Below, one piece after another: positions 53,831-62,380 of a DNA stretch of 64,000 bases. The stretch comes from Leptolyngbya sp. NIES-2104. GTDB lineage: Bacteria; Cyanobacteriota; Cyanobacteriia; Leptolyngbyales; Leptolyngbyaceae. Location of the stretch: the NCBI RefSeq assembly GCF_001485215.1, contig NZ_BBWW01000001.1, positions 2,914,001-2,978,000 on the forward strand, read 5' to 3'. Below the pieces are notes generated by a model. The model was given only the letters and a program-made list of their open reading frames with translations. It had not been told where the DNA came from and searched no databases. Position 1 is the stretch's first letter; each line of letters starts with the position of its first letter. Position numbers and translations under genes: made by a program.

Positions 53831-54970
53831 ATGACTGTGTTGATTTTGCTATTTAACGCGGTTAGCTTCTTTCTGTCGCTTTGGATTGTGATTCCAGCAC
53901 CGATTTTTTCATTGTTGCCGCTGAGTGTTGGCGCACCGGAGATTAGTCACTGGCTGGTTTTGACCAATACGATTGCGCTTTTATTCACAGTGTTTCGTCT
54001 CAAATCTCTGCCAATTCTAATCGGAATGATATTTGCACTCAGTTTGAGCTTGATACCGATCGCACAATTTCCAGCAACCGCACAACAAGCAAGCAGTGCA
54101 ATGAAATCGAGCTTAGGTGAGCAGCGCGTTTTACCTGGTTTTAGATCTGCACCGTTTGTTTTATTAGATGCGTTTCGCGGCATTCCCAAAGCTGAAATTC
54201 GTCAAACGTTAAACATTCCTGTTGCACAGTCGGACAATGTACCTTTGACAATGAATGTTTATCGTCCGATGCGATCGGGCAAGAATCCAGCGATCGTGAT
54301 GATCTACGGAGGTGCTTGGAGAGCGGGGAATCCTAACTCGAATGAGGAATTTAGTCGGTACATGGCAGCCCAGGGTTATACCGTTTTGGCGATCGACTAT
54401 CGACACGCGCCACGGTATCAGTTTCCGACTCAGCTTGAAGACATTAGAACTGCATTAGAGTTCATTCAGCAGAATGCAGATCAGTATGAAGTGGATGTCG
54501 ATCGAATGGCAATCATGGGACGTTCCGCAGGCGGACATTTAGCAATGCTGACTGCTTTCGCAACTGATGCTTTTCCCTTTCGTGCGGTTGTCAATTACTA
54601 CAGTCCGGTTGAACTCACTGAAGGCTATAACAATCCACCGTTTCCTGATCCGATCGACAGTCGCGACGTGCTGCGGAATTTTCTAGGAGGAACCCCGATC
54701 GAGCGATCAGATCTCTATCGGCAAGCATCGCCTCACCAACAAGTGCGATCGAACTTGCCGCCGATTTTATTGATCTATGGAGGGAAGGATCATATTGTAG
54801 AGTCGAAATTTGGTCGGGGTTTGTATGAGAAATTGAAGCAGAACGGTAACAATGCAGTCTTGATTGAAATTCCTTGGGCGGAACATGCTTTTGATGCAGT
54901 GTTTAACGGTGTGAGCAATCAACTATCGCTTTACTACACCGAGCGTTTTCTGGCATCCACGCTGAAATAG
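53831..54970 (+). CDS. Membrane-anchored alpha/beta hydrolase (BD-FAE-like esterase)
   Basis: A 379-residue protein. The first about 90 residues have three hydrophobic segments, then an alpha/beta hydrolase domain with an oxyanion motif VMIYGGAW, nucleophile Ser232 in MGRSAGGHLAML, an acid near LLIYGGKDHIVE and His in WAEHAFDAVF. It resembles BD-FAE/carboxylesterase-type enzymes that deacylate carbohydrates or lipids. It lies 3 bases after the NlpC gene, so it shares its transcript. Substrate unknown. Confidence 0.86.
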   Translation: MTVLILLFNAVSFFLSLWIVIPAPIFSLLPLSVGAPEISHWLVLTNTIALLFTVFRLKSLPILIGMIFALSLSLIPIAQFPATAQQASSAMKSSLGEQRVLPGFRSAPFVLLDAFRGIPKAEIRQTLNIPVAQSDNVPLTMNVYRPMRSGKNPAIVMIYGGAWRAGNPNSNEEFSRYMAAQGYTVLAIDYRHAPRYQFPTQLEDIRTALEFIQQNADQYEVDVDRMAIMGRSAGGHLAMLTAFATDAFPFRAVVNYYSPVELTEGYNNPPFPDPIDSRDVLRNFLGGTPIERSDLYRQASPHQQVRSNLPPILLIYGGKDHIVESKFGRGLYEKLKQNGNNAVLIEIPWAEHAFDAVFNGVSNQLSLYYTERFLASTLK

Positions 54971-55072
54971 AGCGATCGAAGTTGATGAGTTTAACCTAAA
55001 TTCCTATTTTCAAGGAGAGGAACTACGAGAATGTTTGGAAAGCATAGGAAGTCTTTCCGCTATTGTTGCTGA

Positions 55073-55203
55073 CCCGCCCCGGAATGAAATTCGGGGCTAA
55101 TTGAACGAAGTCCACTGAAGGGGACTGAAGAGCCTGGATAGAGTTCTTTAGTCAGTTTCAACTGACTTCGCACGGTTAGCCCCGAATTCTATTCCGGGGC
55201 GGG
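55073..55203. repeat. 131-base MITE-like inverted-repeat element
   Basis: The ends are 28-base inverted repeats with 26 matches: CCCGCCCCGGAAT at 55073 and ATTCCGGGGCGGG at 55191-55203 are the outer parts, and TTCGGGGCTAA / TTAGCCCCGAA the inner. Inside are further nested repeats: CGAAGTC/GACTTCG, AGTCC/GGACT and AGTCAGT/ACTGACT. Very similar elements recur in cyanobacterial genomes (from memory). It has no gene and would fold as one long RNA stem. It lies in the 323-base gap between the convergent esterase and GH65 genes, where nothing else is seen. Confidence 0.85.
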
Positions 55204-55293
55204 TGATGCAACAAACGATCACTTCTCAAATACCCTCTAGATTTGAGACTATTGGAAACGTTTTCTAAAACGCTTACTTCCTGCTTTCTAGAG

Positions 55294-58191
55294 CTATCGA
55301 ATCAATTCTGCTTGTCTATCTCCTGTCGCGACTTGCTGCAACCGAGAAAGCAAATCTGTCCAGCGAATTTCAAGACTCGATAAAACAATGTGCGCTTCGC
55401 CCACACGCTCTTCTGGACCTAATCCGACTGCCCACATCTGTCCTGCTAATGCAGCTTCAATTCCAGCAGCAGCATCTTCAAAGACAACACACTGTTCTGG
55501 AGCGCATCCCAGTTCTCTTGCAGCAAAAAGAAACAGGTCAGGAGCAGGTTTCGGACGATCGACACTGTGACCATCCGCGATCGCATCAAACAAATCTGCA
55601 ATCCCTAGCTTTTCAATCACCGGACGGGCATTCTTACTTGCTGAACCTAAAGCGATTTTGATACCTGCATCTCTCAGTTCTTTGAGCAATTCCCTAGCTC
55701 CAGGAAGCAGATCATCGGGTGAAATCGCTTCGATCGATTCGACATAGTAATGGTTCTTGCGCTCCATCATTTCTTGGATTTGTGCTTCGCTGTAAGAGCG
55801 ATCGCCAATGATTTTCATCAGCGATTCGCGGCGGGAAATGCCTCTGAGGGCTTCGTTCGCTTGTCGATCGAAGGGCAAACCTTCCTCATCCGCGAGGCGT
55901 TGCCAAGAGCGGTAATGATATTCAGCCGTATCTGTGATGACCCCATCGAGGTCAAAAATCGCGCCTTGAATGTTAAAAGAATCAGTCATGATAGGTTTAG
56001 ATGAATCAGGTCTTAGATCAAACTCGTGCCATTTGCCGCGCCAGTGTAGGCGGAATTTTAGCCGCGTCCAACCGGGGGGAAGATGCGGATGGGCAAAGGG
56101 TTCATCGCCAAATTGGACACCGCCAAAGCCAAGGACAACGGCTTGCCAGATGCCTCCTGCGGACGCGCCATGGATTCCCTCATGAGCATTGCCGCGAGTA
56201 TCTTCTAAATCAACTAATACAGCCTGCATGAATCGCTCATACGCTTCAACTGTCATATTGAGATCTGAAGCAAGGATTGCATGAATCGCAGGACCTAAAG
56301 ATGATCCATAAGTAATATCAGTTCGAGGTGCGTAATAGTTCCAATTCGTTTCTAGAGACTCTTTCGAGTAAGGAAACTCGTCAGATTGCCGCATTAGATA
56401 CAGCAACATTAATACATCCGGTTGCTTCAGAACTTGAGCTTTATCTGCTCCATCAATTCCGAGAATTGCCTGCATCGATTTAGTGCGCGGCTCATAGTCT
56501 TCAAGGTTGATGTCTTTGAGCTTGAAGAAGTCTTCTGATTGTTCGATCAATCCGGATGGATGATACGGAATCCAAATGTTTGTAGCAATGTCTTGCCAAC
56601 GCGATCGACGTTCTGCGGTAATCTTCAATCGATCGCACAAGTTCTTTAATCGGTCTGGATAGCACTCTTTTAACCAATCATAGATATAAATGGCTTTTTC
56701 TAGATGCCACTGCGCCATTCGGTTTGTGAACGCATTGTTATCGACATGCTCATGATACTCATCTGCACCAATGACTTCCCGAATTTCAAAGCGTTCATAG
56801 CGCGTACTCCATTCGGTGCGGCTCATCCAGAAAACGGCTGTATCGAGAATGATTTCGCAACCATAATCGCGCATCCATTCATCGTCTTCGGTTGCTTGCC
56901 AGTAGTACCAGGAGGCATAAGCAATGTCAGCACTAATATGAATTTCGCGATCGCGACACCAGATCCGAATATCTTCACCGTACGGATCTTTCGGTAATGC
57001 CCATCTTGGCGTGACTTCATCGCCTGTGTCCGCACTTTCCCAGGAGTACATCGCACCTTTATAGCCATAGTAGGCAGCTTTGCGACGTGCGCCCTCGATC
57101 GTGTGATAGCGATAGCTCAGTAAGTTTCGAGCGAGATGCGGTTGAGTAAAGGTAAAGAACGGCAGAATAAAGATCTCTGTGTCCCAAAAGACGTGACCGC
57201 GATAGCCAAATCCAGACAGTGTTTTAGCGGGAATGCTGACTCGATCGTTATGTCGAGCCGCAGCGATTAACAACTGAAATAAGTTATATCGAACCGCAAA
57301 TTGAGCGCGGAGATCGCCTTCGATCACAATGTCGCTCTGTTCCCAAGTTTCCGCCCAGCTTTGTTCGTGAGCCGCAAACAGGGTTTGATAGTCCGGTAAT
57401 GCTGCGAGTTTAGCTTGAGCTGCTTTTACTGGAGATTCGGCATCGTGGGACGTGTAGATCGTGATTAGATTTTCGATCGTAATCGTCTGACCCATCGGAG
57501 CCATGAAGGTTGTTGTTAATGTCGGATAGCCTGGAACATTTGTGATTTGCACTGCTCCTTCTGCACCGATCAAAGACAAGCTCGAAGCCATTGCTAACTC
57601 AACATGAGAAGTCCGTGTCCGAACCTGTAACCAAACCCCATGCTCGGTTTTTCCTTGTCCTAGCTGTTCCCAATGGTTAAAGCCCTGATTTTCTGGATAA
57701 CCGTTGATGCTAGCTTGCACTTCTACGATCGCATCTTGCTCTGTCGTAATCTGACAGCGCAATCCGACGACGTGTTCATCCGCAAGACTTGCAAACCGTT
57801 CAAAGTGCAATGAGAGTGTTTTCCCGTTCGGACTGCGCCATTTTACCGATCGACTTAACACCGCTCGTTTGACATCTAACTGGCGTTCGTAGCTCAGAAT
57901 TTCACCCTGATCGAGCCGAAAGCGTTCCCCATCGACAATGATCAACAGCGGCAACCAATCCGGACAATTCACCAGTTCGGTATAAACGACAGGCACATCG
58001 TCATACACGCCGTGAATCAGGGTTGCTGCTTGAGATTGAGAAAATCCTTCTTCAAAACTGCCGCGTGTCCCCAAATAGCCATTTCCGATCGTAAAAACGG
58101 TTTCGCGGGTGTTGAGCAGTCTCGGATTGAATTCAGTCTCGATCGCAGTCCAGTCTGTGTAGATTAGCGGGGAACGGTCGGTCTGGGTCAT
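55294..58191 (-). CDS. GH65 disaccharide phosphorylase fused to beta-phosphoglucomutase
   Basis: A 965-residue fusion. Residues 1-about 730 are a glycoside hydrolase family 65 phosphorylase (maltose, trehalose or kojibiose type): GYRGHVFWDTEIF lies in the sugar-binding site and Glu478 in GADEYHEHVDNNAF is the likely catalytic acid. Residues 735-965 are a HAD beta-phosphoglucomutase (FDLDGVITDTAEYHYRSW, with nucleophile and acid Asp; GSASKN; VFEDAAAGIEAA). An inverting phosphorylase gives beta-glucose-1-P, and the fused mutase turns it into glucose-6-P. Which disaccharide is used cannot be read here. The sucrose synthase gene lies 19 bases upstream. Confidence 0.92.
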   Translation of the reverse strand: MTQTDRSPLIYTDWTAIETEFNPRLLNTRETVFTIGNGYLGTRGSFEEGFSQSQAATLIHGVYDDVPVVYTELVNCPDWLPLLIIVDGERFRLDQGEILSYERQLDVKRAVLSRSVKWRSPNGKTLSLHFERFASLADEHVVGLRCQITTEQDAIVEVQASINGYPENQGFNHWEQLGQGKTEHGVWLQVRTRTSHVELAMASSLSLIGAEGAVQITNVPGYPTLTTTFMAPMGQTITIENLITIYTSHDAESPVKAAQAKLAALPDYQTLFAAHEQSWAETWEQSDIVIEGDLRAQFAVRYNLFQLLIAAARHNDRVSIPAKTLSGFGYRGHVFWDTEIFILPFFTFTQPHLARNLLSYRYHTIEGARRKAAYYGYKGAMYSWESADTGDEVTPRWALPKDPYGEDIRIWCRDREIHISADIAYASWYYWQATEDDEWMRDYGCEIILDTAVFWMSRTEWSTRYERFEIREVIGADEYHEHVDNNAFTNRMAQWHLEKAIYIYDWLKECYPDRLKNLCDRLKITAERRSRWQDIATNIWIPYHPSGLIEQSEDFFKLKDINLEDYEPRTKSMQAILGIDGADKAQVLKQPDVLMLLYLMRQSDEFPYSKESLETNWNYYAPRTDITYGSSLGPAIHAILASDLNMTVEAYERFMQAVLVDLEDTRGNAHEGIHGASAGGIWQAVVLGFGGVQFGDEPFAHPHLPPGWTRLKFRLHWRGKWHEFDLRPDSSKPIMTDSFNIQGAIFDLDGVITDTAEYHYRSWQRLADEEGLPFDRQANEALRGISRRESLMKIIGDRSYSEAQIQEMMERKNHYYVESIEAISPDDLLPGARELLKELRDAGIKIALGSASKNARPVIEKLGIADLFDAIADGHSVDRPKPAPDLFLFAARELGCAPEQCVVFEDAAAGIEAALAGQMWAVGLGPEERVGEAHIVLSSLEIRWTDLLSRLQQVATGDRQAELIR

Positions 58192-58210
58192 GGCGCAAGA
58201 ACTCCGGGAG

Positions 58211-60616
58211 TTATTGGTTTTGGTGTTGTTCTAGAATGAGTTCGGCTCTGGGTTTGTACATGAGATGGAACAAAGCATCGAGATAATGTAAAAGGGATTC
58301 TCGGCTGTCGCGGTGGACATAGTTCCAGAAGCTATACAGTTTTGTCAGCAATAAAAGTCGCTGCGTATGTCGTGTCCAATTGTACTCATCCAGGATTCGG
58401 TGAATGCTGCGATTTGACATCTTATGCCAATAATCTGAATCCGCATCGGCTCGATCGAGAAACTCTAGAATCTTCCGCGCTGAGCCTTGTAAATCCGTGG
58501 GATTGATTAAAAATCCGTGTCTGTCATCTTCGATAATCTCCGTAGTTCCTCCGAACGCGGTTACAAACGATGGTAGTCCAGAAACCATCGCTTCGAGCAA
58601 TACTCTGCCAAATGCTTCAAACCGAGCAAAATGAACAAAAATCCCTTGGCGATCGGCAATGCAGCGATACATTTCTCCGAGATCGGGATTAGACAGGCGT
58701 TCACCAATCCAGCGAATGTGATTATGCAATTGGTAATGGTCAATCAAGCGATGTATTTTTTCAATCTCTTCGGCTTCTTGAGCGTTAATCGCATCTTCAA
58801 CGCGAAGATTATTAGTGACAAGAATTAAATTACAACGCTGCTGAAGTTCCAGATTGCGTCCAAAACATTCGACGAGTCCCGCTAAATTTTTGACAGCGGT
58901 TAAGGGTGAAACGGCAAGTAGGGGGCGACGTTGCGGATCAGCGAGTTTGCCGAAGATCGTCGGATCTTCCTGCTCGAAAATCAGATGCGTGATGCGATCG
59001 CGATCTTGAGTTGATCGCTGATTCGTATACGGAAAAAAGACCCGCTCATCGACTCCCGGCGAAACCCGATTAAATTTTGGATTAAATAATTCAATTCCAT
59101 TAATCACATGATAAAGCTGTGGCATCGTGAAACATTTGTAAGATTCGTACTGTCCGACCGTCTCCGGAGAACCCACGATTTCTTGATACGACGAAGTGAC
59201 AATGAAATCAGCCGCATTCATGCTGATTAAATCTGCGGTAAATTGCGCGGAAAAATGATATTGCGGTTCTAAGTCTTGCCAGTACAGATTACTAAATAGG
59301 TGTTTCGGCTTTTCTAGCGAGTGAGCAATATTGCAATGTGTCACGTTTAGCTGACGTGCCATTAATGAAGCGACTAAATTTCCATCACTATAGTTACCAA
59401 TGATTAGATCAGGCTTGCCGCCCATTTGCTGTATCAATCGTGCTTGAGCATCGATCGCATAAGTTTCTAAATAGCCCCAAATGTCATATCGAGAAATCCA
59501 GTTATCGGTCACTTTCGGGTTAAATTCTCGAAATGGAACCCGCAAAATCCAAGCATTTTCAGTGTCATCAATCTTTTCGAGCGGCAATGCACACTGAGTA
59601 CCTTCACAGTTCGGAATCAAGCGCGTCAGCACAACGACTTGAGCCTGGATATTGAGCATTTTCAATCCAGCGAGTTCAATGTTTTGCTGCAATTGTCGAT
59701 CGAGGTTTCTTGCCTGATCCAGCACATACGCCACTTGTCCGAGCGTTTCCGGTCGTCCTAGCTCTTCTTGCCCGACCCAACCATGAATTGAAATCGAAGC
59801 CACTCGAAACACCGATGGAAATCGTGCCACAAATGCCTCTAAAATCGCGCTCTGAGGCATCGTAATCATCTGCTCCAACAATTCCATCATTTCTCTAGCG
59901 CGTTCAGCAGTATTGCCCCATCCCGGCTCAAATCCCATCCGCTGTAAGTCTGGGTGAATCGATTCGTATGGCTCCTCAGGAGGACGCGATCGTAAAATCT
60001 GAATTCCGTGTTTAATCTGTTGAGCTAACTGTTCAGCCGATTGAATTTGATCATTAATCAACAATGGAACGCCTTCGTAATCATGCCGATGCAGCACATC
60101 AAACAAGACATTGAGCCAATAATCGCGATCGTCTACCACTTCATTTGTGAGATAGCGATTTAGAAATGCAAGTCCTTCTCCAATGTTGCGCGGATCATTA
60201 ATCGTCGGGCTGTTTTCATAAAATGGCGTAACATCGATTTCAAACAGATTCGACTGAGCACGATCGACAAAGCGATCGCGAGCTTCGAGCATTGATTTCG
60301 GTGACATGGCTTCACAGCCTGTTAACCCTGGATCAAATGCCCAAGTTTCCTGACTGCCAATCCACGGACGCAGCACTAACCAAATGCGATCGTCTTCCAG
60401 TAACAATTCATGACTGTACTGAATCAGATGTGCAATGTGCGAGGAATGTAGAAAATGTGCAGGCTTATGAGTTTCTTCACAATATTCAGCAAAAGCTTGA
60501 AAAATCTCATTTTTTAGAACGTATCGCTGATTCGATCGACGAAAGCGATCGATCATCTGCTGAAGGACTAACTTCTCTTCAAAGTGTTGTAAAACGGTTG
60601 CAATTAGTTGATTCAT
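58211..60616 (-). CDS. susA: Sucrose synthase
   Basis: An 801-residue sucrose synthase, length as in cyanobacterial and plant enzymes (about 800). It cleaves sucrose with UDP or ADP to NDP-glucose and fructose, reversibly. The N-terminal regulatory part is followed by a GT-B core with ILVVTNNL-type elements, GNYSDGNLVASLMARQL (acceptor side), SPLTAVKNLAGLVECF and E-x7-E (EAFGRVLLE) followed by GLPSFVTAFGGTTEIIED. It lies 19 bases before the GH65-mutase gene on the same strand. ADP preference is known for cyanobacterial enzymes but not shown here. Confidence 0.95.
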   Translation of the reverse strand: MNQLIATVLQHFEEKLVLQQMIDRFRRSNQRYVLKNEIFQAFAEYCEETHKPAHFLHSSHIAHLIQYSHELLLEDDRIWLVLRPWIGSQETWAFDPGLTGCEAMSPKSMLEARDRFVDRAQSNLFEIDVTPFYENSPTINDPRNIGEGLAFLNRYLTNEVVDDRDYWLNVLFDVLHRHDYEGVPLLINDQIQSAEQLAQQIKHGIQILRSRPPEEPYESIHPDLQRMGFEPGWGNTAERAREMMELLEQMITMPQSAILEAFVARFPSVFRVASISIHGWVGQEELGRPETLGQVAYVLDQARNLDRQLQQNIELAGLKMLNIQAQVVVLTRLIPNCEGTQCALPLEKIDDTENAWILRVPFREFNPKVTDNWISRYDIWGYLETYAIDAQARLIQQMGGKPDLIIGNYSDGNLVASLMARQLNVTHCNIAHSLEKPKHLFSNLYWQDLEPQYHFSAQFTADLISMNAADFIVTSSYQEIVGSPETVGQYESYKCFTMPQLYHVINGIELFNPKFNRVSPGVDERVFFPYTNQRSTQDRDRITHLIFEQEDPTIFGKLADPQRRPLLAVSPLTAVKNLAGLVECFGRNLELQQRCNLILVTNNLRVEDAINAQEAEEIEKIHRLIDHYQLHNHIRWIGERLSNPDLGEMYRCIADRQGIFVHFARFEAFGRVLLEAMVSGLPSFVTAFGGTTEIIEDDRHGFLINPTDLQGSARKILEFLDRADADSDYWHKMSNRSIHRILDEYNWTRHTQRLLLLTKLYSFWNYVHRDSRESLLHYLDALFHLMYKPRAELILEQHQNQ

Positions 60617-60913
60617 AAAAACGTACCATCAAGCGTCTAGAGTTTGACTCACTTCAGGCGACTCGATGGATGAAAAATCATCAACTCCGATTACACCAAC
60701 ACAAGCGATCCCATCAAGTCACATTTTGCCTGATCGAACTTATAGAATTTCATTCAGAGAAATTCACCTGGCTAACGGTAGAGATTCATCAGCGAGGCTA
60801 AGCAGAGTCGATTCGCGTAAAGTAGCGATCGCACTTCTACATCAATCTTTTTACATCAGCAACGAACTGTACAAGTCGAGCATTTTTGCCGCCAACCTGA
60901 TACCATAAGCAAT

Positions 60914-60990
60914 CAAGCTAGGGGTGCCCCACCGGGCTGAGAACAAACCCTTAGAACCTGAGACTGGGTAATGCCAGCGAAGGGAAGCTA
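60914..60990 (+). promoter_or_regulatory. TPP riboswitch (THI element)
   Basis: The conserved elements are plain: GGGGTGCC, GGGCTGAGAA, ACCCTTAGAACCTGA and GGGTAATGCCAGCGAAGGGAA. It lies just upstream of thiC (its start is 20 bases further), so it should repress thiC when thiamine pyrophosphate is high. Since the ribosome site AGAGG (60997-61001) follows directly, translational control is more likely than termination. The 297-base gap before it, back to the divergent sucrose synthase start, holds no gene I can support. Confidence 0.95.
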
Positions 60991-60991
60991 A

Positions 60992-62380
<1,389 letters not shown>

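Follow-up and report, generated by a model that had tools for sequence, protein, structure and literature searches.

A GH65 phosphorylase/beta-phosphoglucomutase fusion paired with sucrose synthase in Leptolyngbya sp. NIES-2104, a candidate enzyme of glucosylsucrose breakdown

Introduction

Which sugar does a cyanobacterium take apart with a phosphorylase of glycoside hydrolase family 65 (GH65) that is fused to a mutase and encoded directly behind sucrose synthase? The question is raised by a 64,000-nucleotide stretch of the genome of Leptolyngbya sp. NIES-2104 (contig NZ_BBWW01000001.1, positions 2,914,001 to 2,978,000), here called the window. Two of its minus-strand genes encode an 801-aa sucrose synthase (SuSy; 58211-60616) and a 965-aa fusion of a GH65 phosphorylase with beta-phosphoglucomutase (bPGM; 55294-58191). 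GH65 phosphorylases give beta-glucose-1-phosphate, from which bPGM gives glucose-6-phosphate; kojibiose phosphorylases (KPs) cut alpha-1,2-glucosidic bonds, and SuSy splits sucrose into UDP-glucose and fructose. On sequence evidence, we put a probability of about three in four on the reading that the gene pair is a sugar-mobilisation module, in which the main in vivo substrates of the GH65 half would be the cell's own glucosylsucroses, (alpha-Glc-1,2)n-sucrose.

The presence of glucosylsucroses in cyanobacteria has been on record since the 1960s, with the synthase following in 2022 (PMC9909042). According to that report, glucosylsucrose synthase (GSS; Tll1591, Alr1000) builds alpha-1,2-linked glucosylsucroses from sucrose and UDP-glucose, and tll1591 is proximal to the SPS gene tll1590. 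No breakdown enzyme for glucosylsucroses is named in the available text of PMC9909042, glucosylsucrose is absent from the GH65 substrates of Table 1 in PMC8537180, and we found no link between GH65 and glucosylsucrose in the open-access library searched. The protein families and this kind of fusion are already known, and a Nostoc KP is listed in print; the proposed assignment to glucosylsucrose turnover is the new part.

Domain architecture and specificity residues

The fusion gene is a single open reading frame (ORF) with an ATG start. Its GH65 part (residues 12-730; 56002-58158, minus strand) consists of an N-domain (Pfam Glyco_hydro_65N, 17-249, 216 bits), a catalytic barrel (65m, 301-683, 369 bits) and a C-domain (65C, 701-730, 30 bits). 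The bPGM part (residues 741-925; 55417-55971, minus strand) is recognized by Pfam HAD (742-916, 106 bits) and by the NCBIfam equivalog model TIGR01990, at 245 bits against a cut-off of 189.4. The two are joined by a linker of residues 731-740 (55972-56001, minus strand) whose length differs among homologs. The original prediction, made from the DNA letters and their translations, had described one polypeptide joining a disaccharide phosphorylase to the mutase that uses its beta-glucose-1-phosphate, with a fusion point near residue 735. Both Pfam and TIGR01990, together with the intact residues described below, agree with that description, and the domain boundary at about 731-740 agrees with the fusion point. 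In the AlphaFold model this boundary falls in a low-confidence stretch, residues 730-738.

Six specificity positions have been described for GH65 by De Beul et al. (PMC8537180), at which KPs read EEAPxx, maltose phosphorylases KV[MF]NES and trehalose phosphorylases TRIGPP. At these positions (64, 392, 394, 402, 416 and 585 in the KP CsKP) the window protein reads EEAPWG, a KP signature, with E72, E385, A387, P395 and W411 as the signature residues by alignment to CsKP. The general acid, E478, and the phosphate site, K323, S630, S631 and H674 (positions by alignment; roles as in PMC8626586), are all present, so the general acid Glu and the Lys/Ser/Ser/His site of a GH65 inverting phosphorylase are both found. 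For comparison we used named homologous loci, the best 80 of 170 in a scan of named genomes. Residue counts exclude two of them, L073 and L134, whose frames end after 741 and 747 aa, but include L117 and L129, whose match ranges extend past a stop while the frames, measured from the match start, reach 957 and 966 aa. In all 78 fused homologs counted, EEAPW, the general acid and the phosphate-site residues are identical.

Three other activities do not fit the signature: maltose phosphorylase (KV[MF]NES; the LbMP row reads KVFN-S), trehalose phosphorylase (a TRIGPP-type motif) and 2-O-alpha-glucosylglycerol phosphorylase (EIGPHK in BsGGP). The best solved match, by sequence search and by fold search alike, is kojibiose phosphorylase 3wiq/3wir. 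The AlphaFold model of the 965-aa protein (mean pLDDT 72, pTM 0.65) has low confidence in the GH65 active-site loops 27-76, 374-420 and 472-486 and was for that reason used for fold assignment only. Taken from these residues, the GH65 half is most likely an inverting phosphorylase of alpha-1,2-glucosidic bonds, with a predicted activity of the KP type. Of the alpha-disaccharide substrate first suggested for it, phosphorolysis of an alpha-glucoside stands; the EEAPWG residues and the GSS data below narrow the candidate substrate to the alpha-1,2-glucosylsucrose series and away from maltose and trehalose.

The mutase half appears equally intact. Its residues D747, D749, T755, H759, R787, S850, K881, E905 and D906 agree at nine of nine positions with the catalytic residues of Lactococcus lactis bPGM. 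All nine are identical in 86 of 86 fused homologs, a comparison that leaves out genome G130 and an unfused copy in G109. The active-site residues of both domains are thus present on alignment.

The genome of the window (6.4 Mb) has three GH65 genes and two SuSy genes. The second GH65 gene, at C1:363168-365339 (L154:10118-12385), is an unfused KP-type copy that also reads EEAPWG; the surrounding 19 kb (L154) contains no SuSy or GSS match. The third, at C1:1458950-1461178 (L155:6822-9227), is about 31-33% identical to the fusion and reads ERIA-H at the specificity positions, which fits none of the motifs quoted here from PMC8537180.

Pairing with sucrose synthase

The SuSy gene lies directly upstream of the fusion gene on the same strand. 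Its product has an EPBD domain and two GT-B halves and clears the NCBIfam equivalog model TIGR02470 (1032 bits, cut-off 810). ORF coordinates place 19 bases (58192-58210, minus strand) between the SuSy stop and the fusion ATG, the spacing originally reported, with GGAG 10 bases before the ATG. A terminator scan of 54900-61100 gave no terminator-like site or hairpin in this gap, and the sequence so far shows no sign of a transcription break between the genes. Two terminator-like sites turned up in the scanned region, at 57992-58011 and 55390-55406 on the minus strand, both of them within the fusion gene; chance alone would give 5.6 in the region. A promoter scan found six sites against 8.6 expected; because this is below the chance number, no promoter is claimed.

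Of the 80 named loci, 78 stay open as one frame for over 880 aa counted from the match start; at 72, SuSy is the immediate upstream neighbor in the same orientation. Six of the remaining eight offer under 250 bases of upstream sequence; L117 extends about 1.6 kb upstream without SuSy, and L084 8.2 kb without a SuSy match above the 300-bit limit. With counts this high, neither the fusion nor its pairing with SuSy can be put down to chance or mis-assembly, and the suggested tie to sucrose metabolism is strengthened. The closest homologs among these best 80 of 170, which include Pseudanabaenaceae LEGE 13415, Phormidium tanganyikae and Leptolyngbya Prado105, are 84-95% identical.

A more even sample was drawn as 194 cyanobacterial genomes of the class. 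The KP, GSS and SuSy surveys, of 194 genomes each, were taken as one draw, and genomes not listed in a survey were counted as lacking the gene. A GH65 gene was counted as KP-type at 55% identity or more across the GH65 part and E <= 1e-60. At least one such gene occurs in 40 genomes, for a total of 49 KP genes. Of these, 27 (in 27 genomes) follow SuSy, with 23-293 bases between match ends and SuSy always upstream. SuSy is present in 38 of the 40 KP genomes (in one, G056, as a partial match with stops) versus 42 of the 154 KP-less genomes. The phosphorylase-bPGM fusion is widespread; neither its protein families nor this type of fusion is new.

Co-occurrence with glucosylsucrose synthase

Were glucosylsucrose degraded by KP-bPGM, no genome with the fusion would be expected to lack GSS, and this expectation held in the 194-genome draw. 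A GSS homolog (E <= 1e-60; 12 of the 112 GSS-positive genomes fall under 55% identity) was found in 40 of 40 KP genomes versus 72 of 154 others, for a Fisher p of about 1e-11 with kinship ignored. Counting genera, GSS occurs in 27 of 27 with KP versus 38 of 80 others. The association persists among SuSy-positive genomes (38 of 38 with KP, 26 of 42 without) and under a stricter definition of GSS at 55% identity or more (39 of 40 versus 61 of 154). Genomes with GH65 of other types only have GSS in two of seven cases.

The genome of the window has a GSS ortholog, scoring 523 bits to TeGSS (7fg9) and lying 23 bases from an SPS ortholog of Tll1590. Another GSS-like gene, sharing 70% identity with this ortholog, occurs at C1:2335258-2336301 (L158:8657-9844); no SPS ortholog was seen in the surrounding 19 kb.

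One genome of the even draw, G069, carries on one strand an uninterrupted run of GSS, a debranching-enzyme-like gene and KP-bPGM. A second set of 60 relatives of G069, chosen after this cluster had been seen and sharing 12 genomes with the first draw, has KP (here at E <= 1e-100) in 24 and GSS in 39. GSS is found in 23 of the 24 KP genomes, all but the 73%-complete G219, and in 16 of the 36 genomes without KP; in the 48 new genomes alone the counts are 20 of 21 with KP and 11 of 27 without. In 16 of the 24 KP genomes, GSS lies 0.5-3.4 kb from KP-bPGM. Fourteen of these 16 clusters show the order GSS, debranching-like gene, KP-bPGM on one strand. In G231 (L170) the run is GSS, SuSy, KP-bPGM, again on one strand, while in G256 GSS is convergent to SuSy and KP-bPGM. 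Genomes G227, G231, G243 and G256 belong to four families other than that of G069. The co-occurrence and the clusters together favor compatible solutes as the likely setting, as had been supposed from the locus alone.

The debranching-enzyme-like gene (L151:10377-12692, minus strand) encodes a glycoside hydrolase (GDE_N_bis, MGH1-like; 311 bits to 7vma). A 72%-identical copy is found elsewhere in the genome of the window, at C1:4816025-4818298.

The linker and the question of channelling

Substrate channelling between phosphorolysis and sucrose metabolism had been suggested from the locus, and it finds no support here. The stretch between domains runs from 8 to 75 residues among homologs, and in G130 (L152) mutase and phosphorylase are separate neighboring ORFs. 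In L073 and L134 the frame ends close to the domain boundary, after 741 and 747 aa counted from the match start, so that bPGM falls outside the GH65 frame; these stops may represent a natural split or sequencing error. The sequences favor a loose tether over a built tunnel between the domains. Given the variable linker and the split homologs, fusion is more likely to serve equal dosage and proximity.

Free-standing bPGM domains that share 58-61% identity with the fused one occur at L156:9258-9962, L166:9757-10488 and L163:8779-9471, all in genomes without KP-type GH65. In L156 and L166 the gene is downstream of a 1041-aa ORF; HEAT repeats in that ORF were shown for L156.

Beyond the gene pair, a TPP riboswitch (Rfam RF00059, 65 bits) at 60910-61002 on the plus strand precedes thiC (61010-62380), divergent from the SuSy gene.

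Discussion

In the cycle we propose, GSS would build glucosylsucroses from sucrose and UDP-glucose under stress. The GH65 half would then remove glucose units singly with phosphate, releasing beta-glucose-1-phosphate that the fused mutase would convert to glucose-6-phosphate. The last product, sucrose, may pass to the co-directional SuSy and yield UDP-glucose and fructose. Carbon would thereby return to metabolism, with bond energy retained as sugar phosphates and UDP-glucose. A fructose-capped substrate such as glucosylsucrose is compatible with the acceptor tolerance of one known KP: the review PMC4336185 describes a Thermoanaerobium KP for which the acceptor glucoside can be of either anomer and bear a variety of anomeric substituents. 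A tentative extension, on which we are close to evenly divided, is that the cyanobacterial KP-bPGM fusions are dedicated glucosylsucrose phosphorylases, adapted to non-reducing, fructose-capped chains, perhaps via Cys412.

Several observations weigh against glucosylsucrose breakdown as the role of the pair. The GH65 phosphorylase reaction is reversible. Cys412 stands where CsKP has T417, in the +1 subsite, and is Cys in 78 of 78 homologs; Thr at this position is not given as KP-defining in the literature consulted. In a small tree (35 of 94 aligned sequences, with three characterized references), the cyanobacterial clade (support 0.98) pairs with BsGGP (support 1.0) rather than with CsKP, which joins at a node of support 0.32; the branching of KP versus glucosylglycerol phosphorylase is unsettled there, so descent alone does not fix the substrate. 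Of the 49 KP genes in the even draw, 22 are not beside SuSy, the unfused copy in the window's own genome among them, and KP genomes G130 and G131 gave no match to SuSy. The sole GSS homolog of G131 is 46% identical. Conversely, 72 of the 112 GSS-positive genomes lack KP-type GH65, and another route of glucosylsucrose breakdown must exist in those. Tight linkage of GSS is limited to some members of the class: in the even draw a distance of under 5 kb between GSS and a KP gene occurs in only one of the 40 KP genomes (G069), the next-nearest distance being 48 kb, and in the genome of the window the two are 215 kb apart. In the second set, eight of the 24 genomes with KP have no GSS-KP cluster, and 12 of the 16 clusters come from G069's own family, in a set picked because of G069.

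The best surviving alternative, which we still consider unlikely, is a plain kojibiose or alpha-1,2-oligoglucan phosphorylase acting on kojibiose that is imported or freed from other glycans, its link to GSS and SuSy reflecting shared stress regulation only. The KP signature and the Nostoc listings fit such an enzyme, characterized KPs use free kojibiose, and in the even draw 39 of the 40 genomes with KP do not have GSS beside it. Yet none of those 40 genomes is without a GSS homolog, and in the second set 16 genomes have GSS close to KP-bPGM, one of them with SuSy in the same run.

It is improbable that the fusion works in the synthetic direction, bPGM making beta-glucose-1-phosphate from glucose-6-phosphate and the GH65 half extending sucrose to add to the glucosylsucrose made by GSS. 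Phosphorylases in vivo meet an excess of phosphate, and this, with the draw-off of beta-glucose-1-phosphate by the mutase, favors breakdown. Reversibility itself is real enough, HoGP (a KP) making alpha-1,2-glucans up to a degree of polymerization of 6 in vitro (PMC8537180), but GSS already produces the series from UDP-glucose (PMC9909042). Least probable of all is glucosylglycerol, trehalose or maltose as the substrate, since, despite the pairing with BsGGP in the small tree and the standing of glucosylglycerol as a cyanobacterial compatible solute (PMC3899277), EEAPWG is unlike the EIGPHK of BsGGP, the KVFN-S of maltose phosphorylase and the motifs KV[MF]NES and TRIGPP.

If breakdown of glucosylsucrose is indeed the role of the fusion, then GSS, KP-bPGM and SuSy would make up a full synthesis-and-recycling cycle for a little-studied group of cyanobacterial stress carbohydrates, and in heterocyst formers the cycle may also feed nitrogen fixation. 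It would explain why SuSy stands beside a GH65-mutase fusion in many cyanobacteria, and would give carbohydrate engineers a phosphorylase for alpha-1,2-glucosylsucroses. The locus offers one candidate breakdown enzyme, with its gene, residues and gene order.

Relation to known systems

The nearest counterparts within the cyanobacteria are in Nostoc. Table 1 of PMC8537180 lists a Nostoc sp. KP, and the legend to Figure 1 of PMC3899277 places All1058 and All4989 of Nostoc sp. PCC 7120 in a tree of characterized GH65 enzymes; one or both probably correspond to that KP. In PMC3610870 all1059 is susB, so SuSy and GH65 (all1058) carry consecutive tags in Nostoc 7120. Orthology of All1058 and All4989 to the window protein is suggested by other Nostoc loci (63-69% identical, among the best 80 of 170) and by gene order. 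A change in a gene for 'Trehalose and maltose hydrolase, and beta-phosphoglucomutase' is described for the phage-resistant Nostoc substrain RD3 (PMC10811720), along with figures on growth and heterocysts; this gene is presumably all1058, but we do not use it as evidence, and the RD3 culture held phage.

Among solved enzymes, L. lactis bPGM (1lvh) shares the nine checked catalytic residues and the fold (TM 0.89 over the target) with the mutase half, but is a stand-alone protein whereas the bPGM of the window is a C-terminal domain. BsGGP (4ktp/4ktr) has the GH65 fold, is inverting and is the nearest reference in the small tree, but differs at the specificity positions and is 34% identical. CsKP (3wiq/3wir, EC 2.4.1.230), at 37-38% identity, shares fold, general acid, phosphate site and EEAPW. 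It differs in that its solved chain of 764 aa has no bPGM part, in having T417 in place of Cys412, and in acting on kojibiose, while the physiological substrate proposed for the window protein is glucosylsucrose. TeGSS (Tll1591) and Alr1000, biosynthetic glycosyltransferases with an ortholog in the same genome, outside the window, would supply the other half of the proposed cycle.

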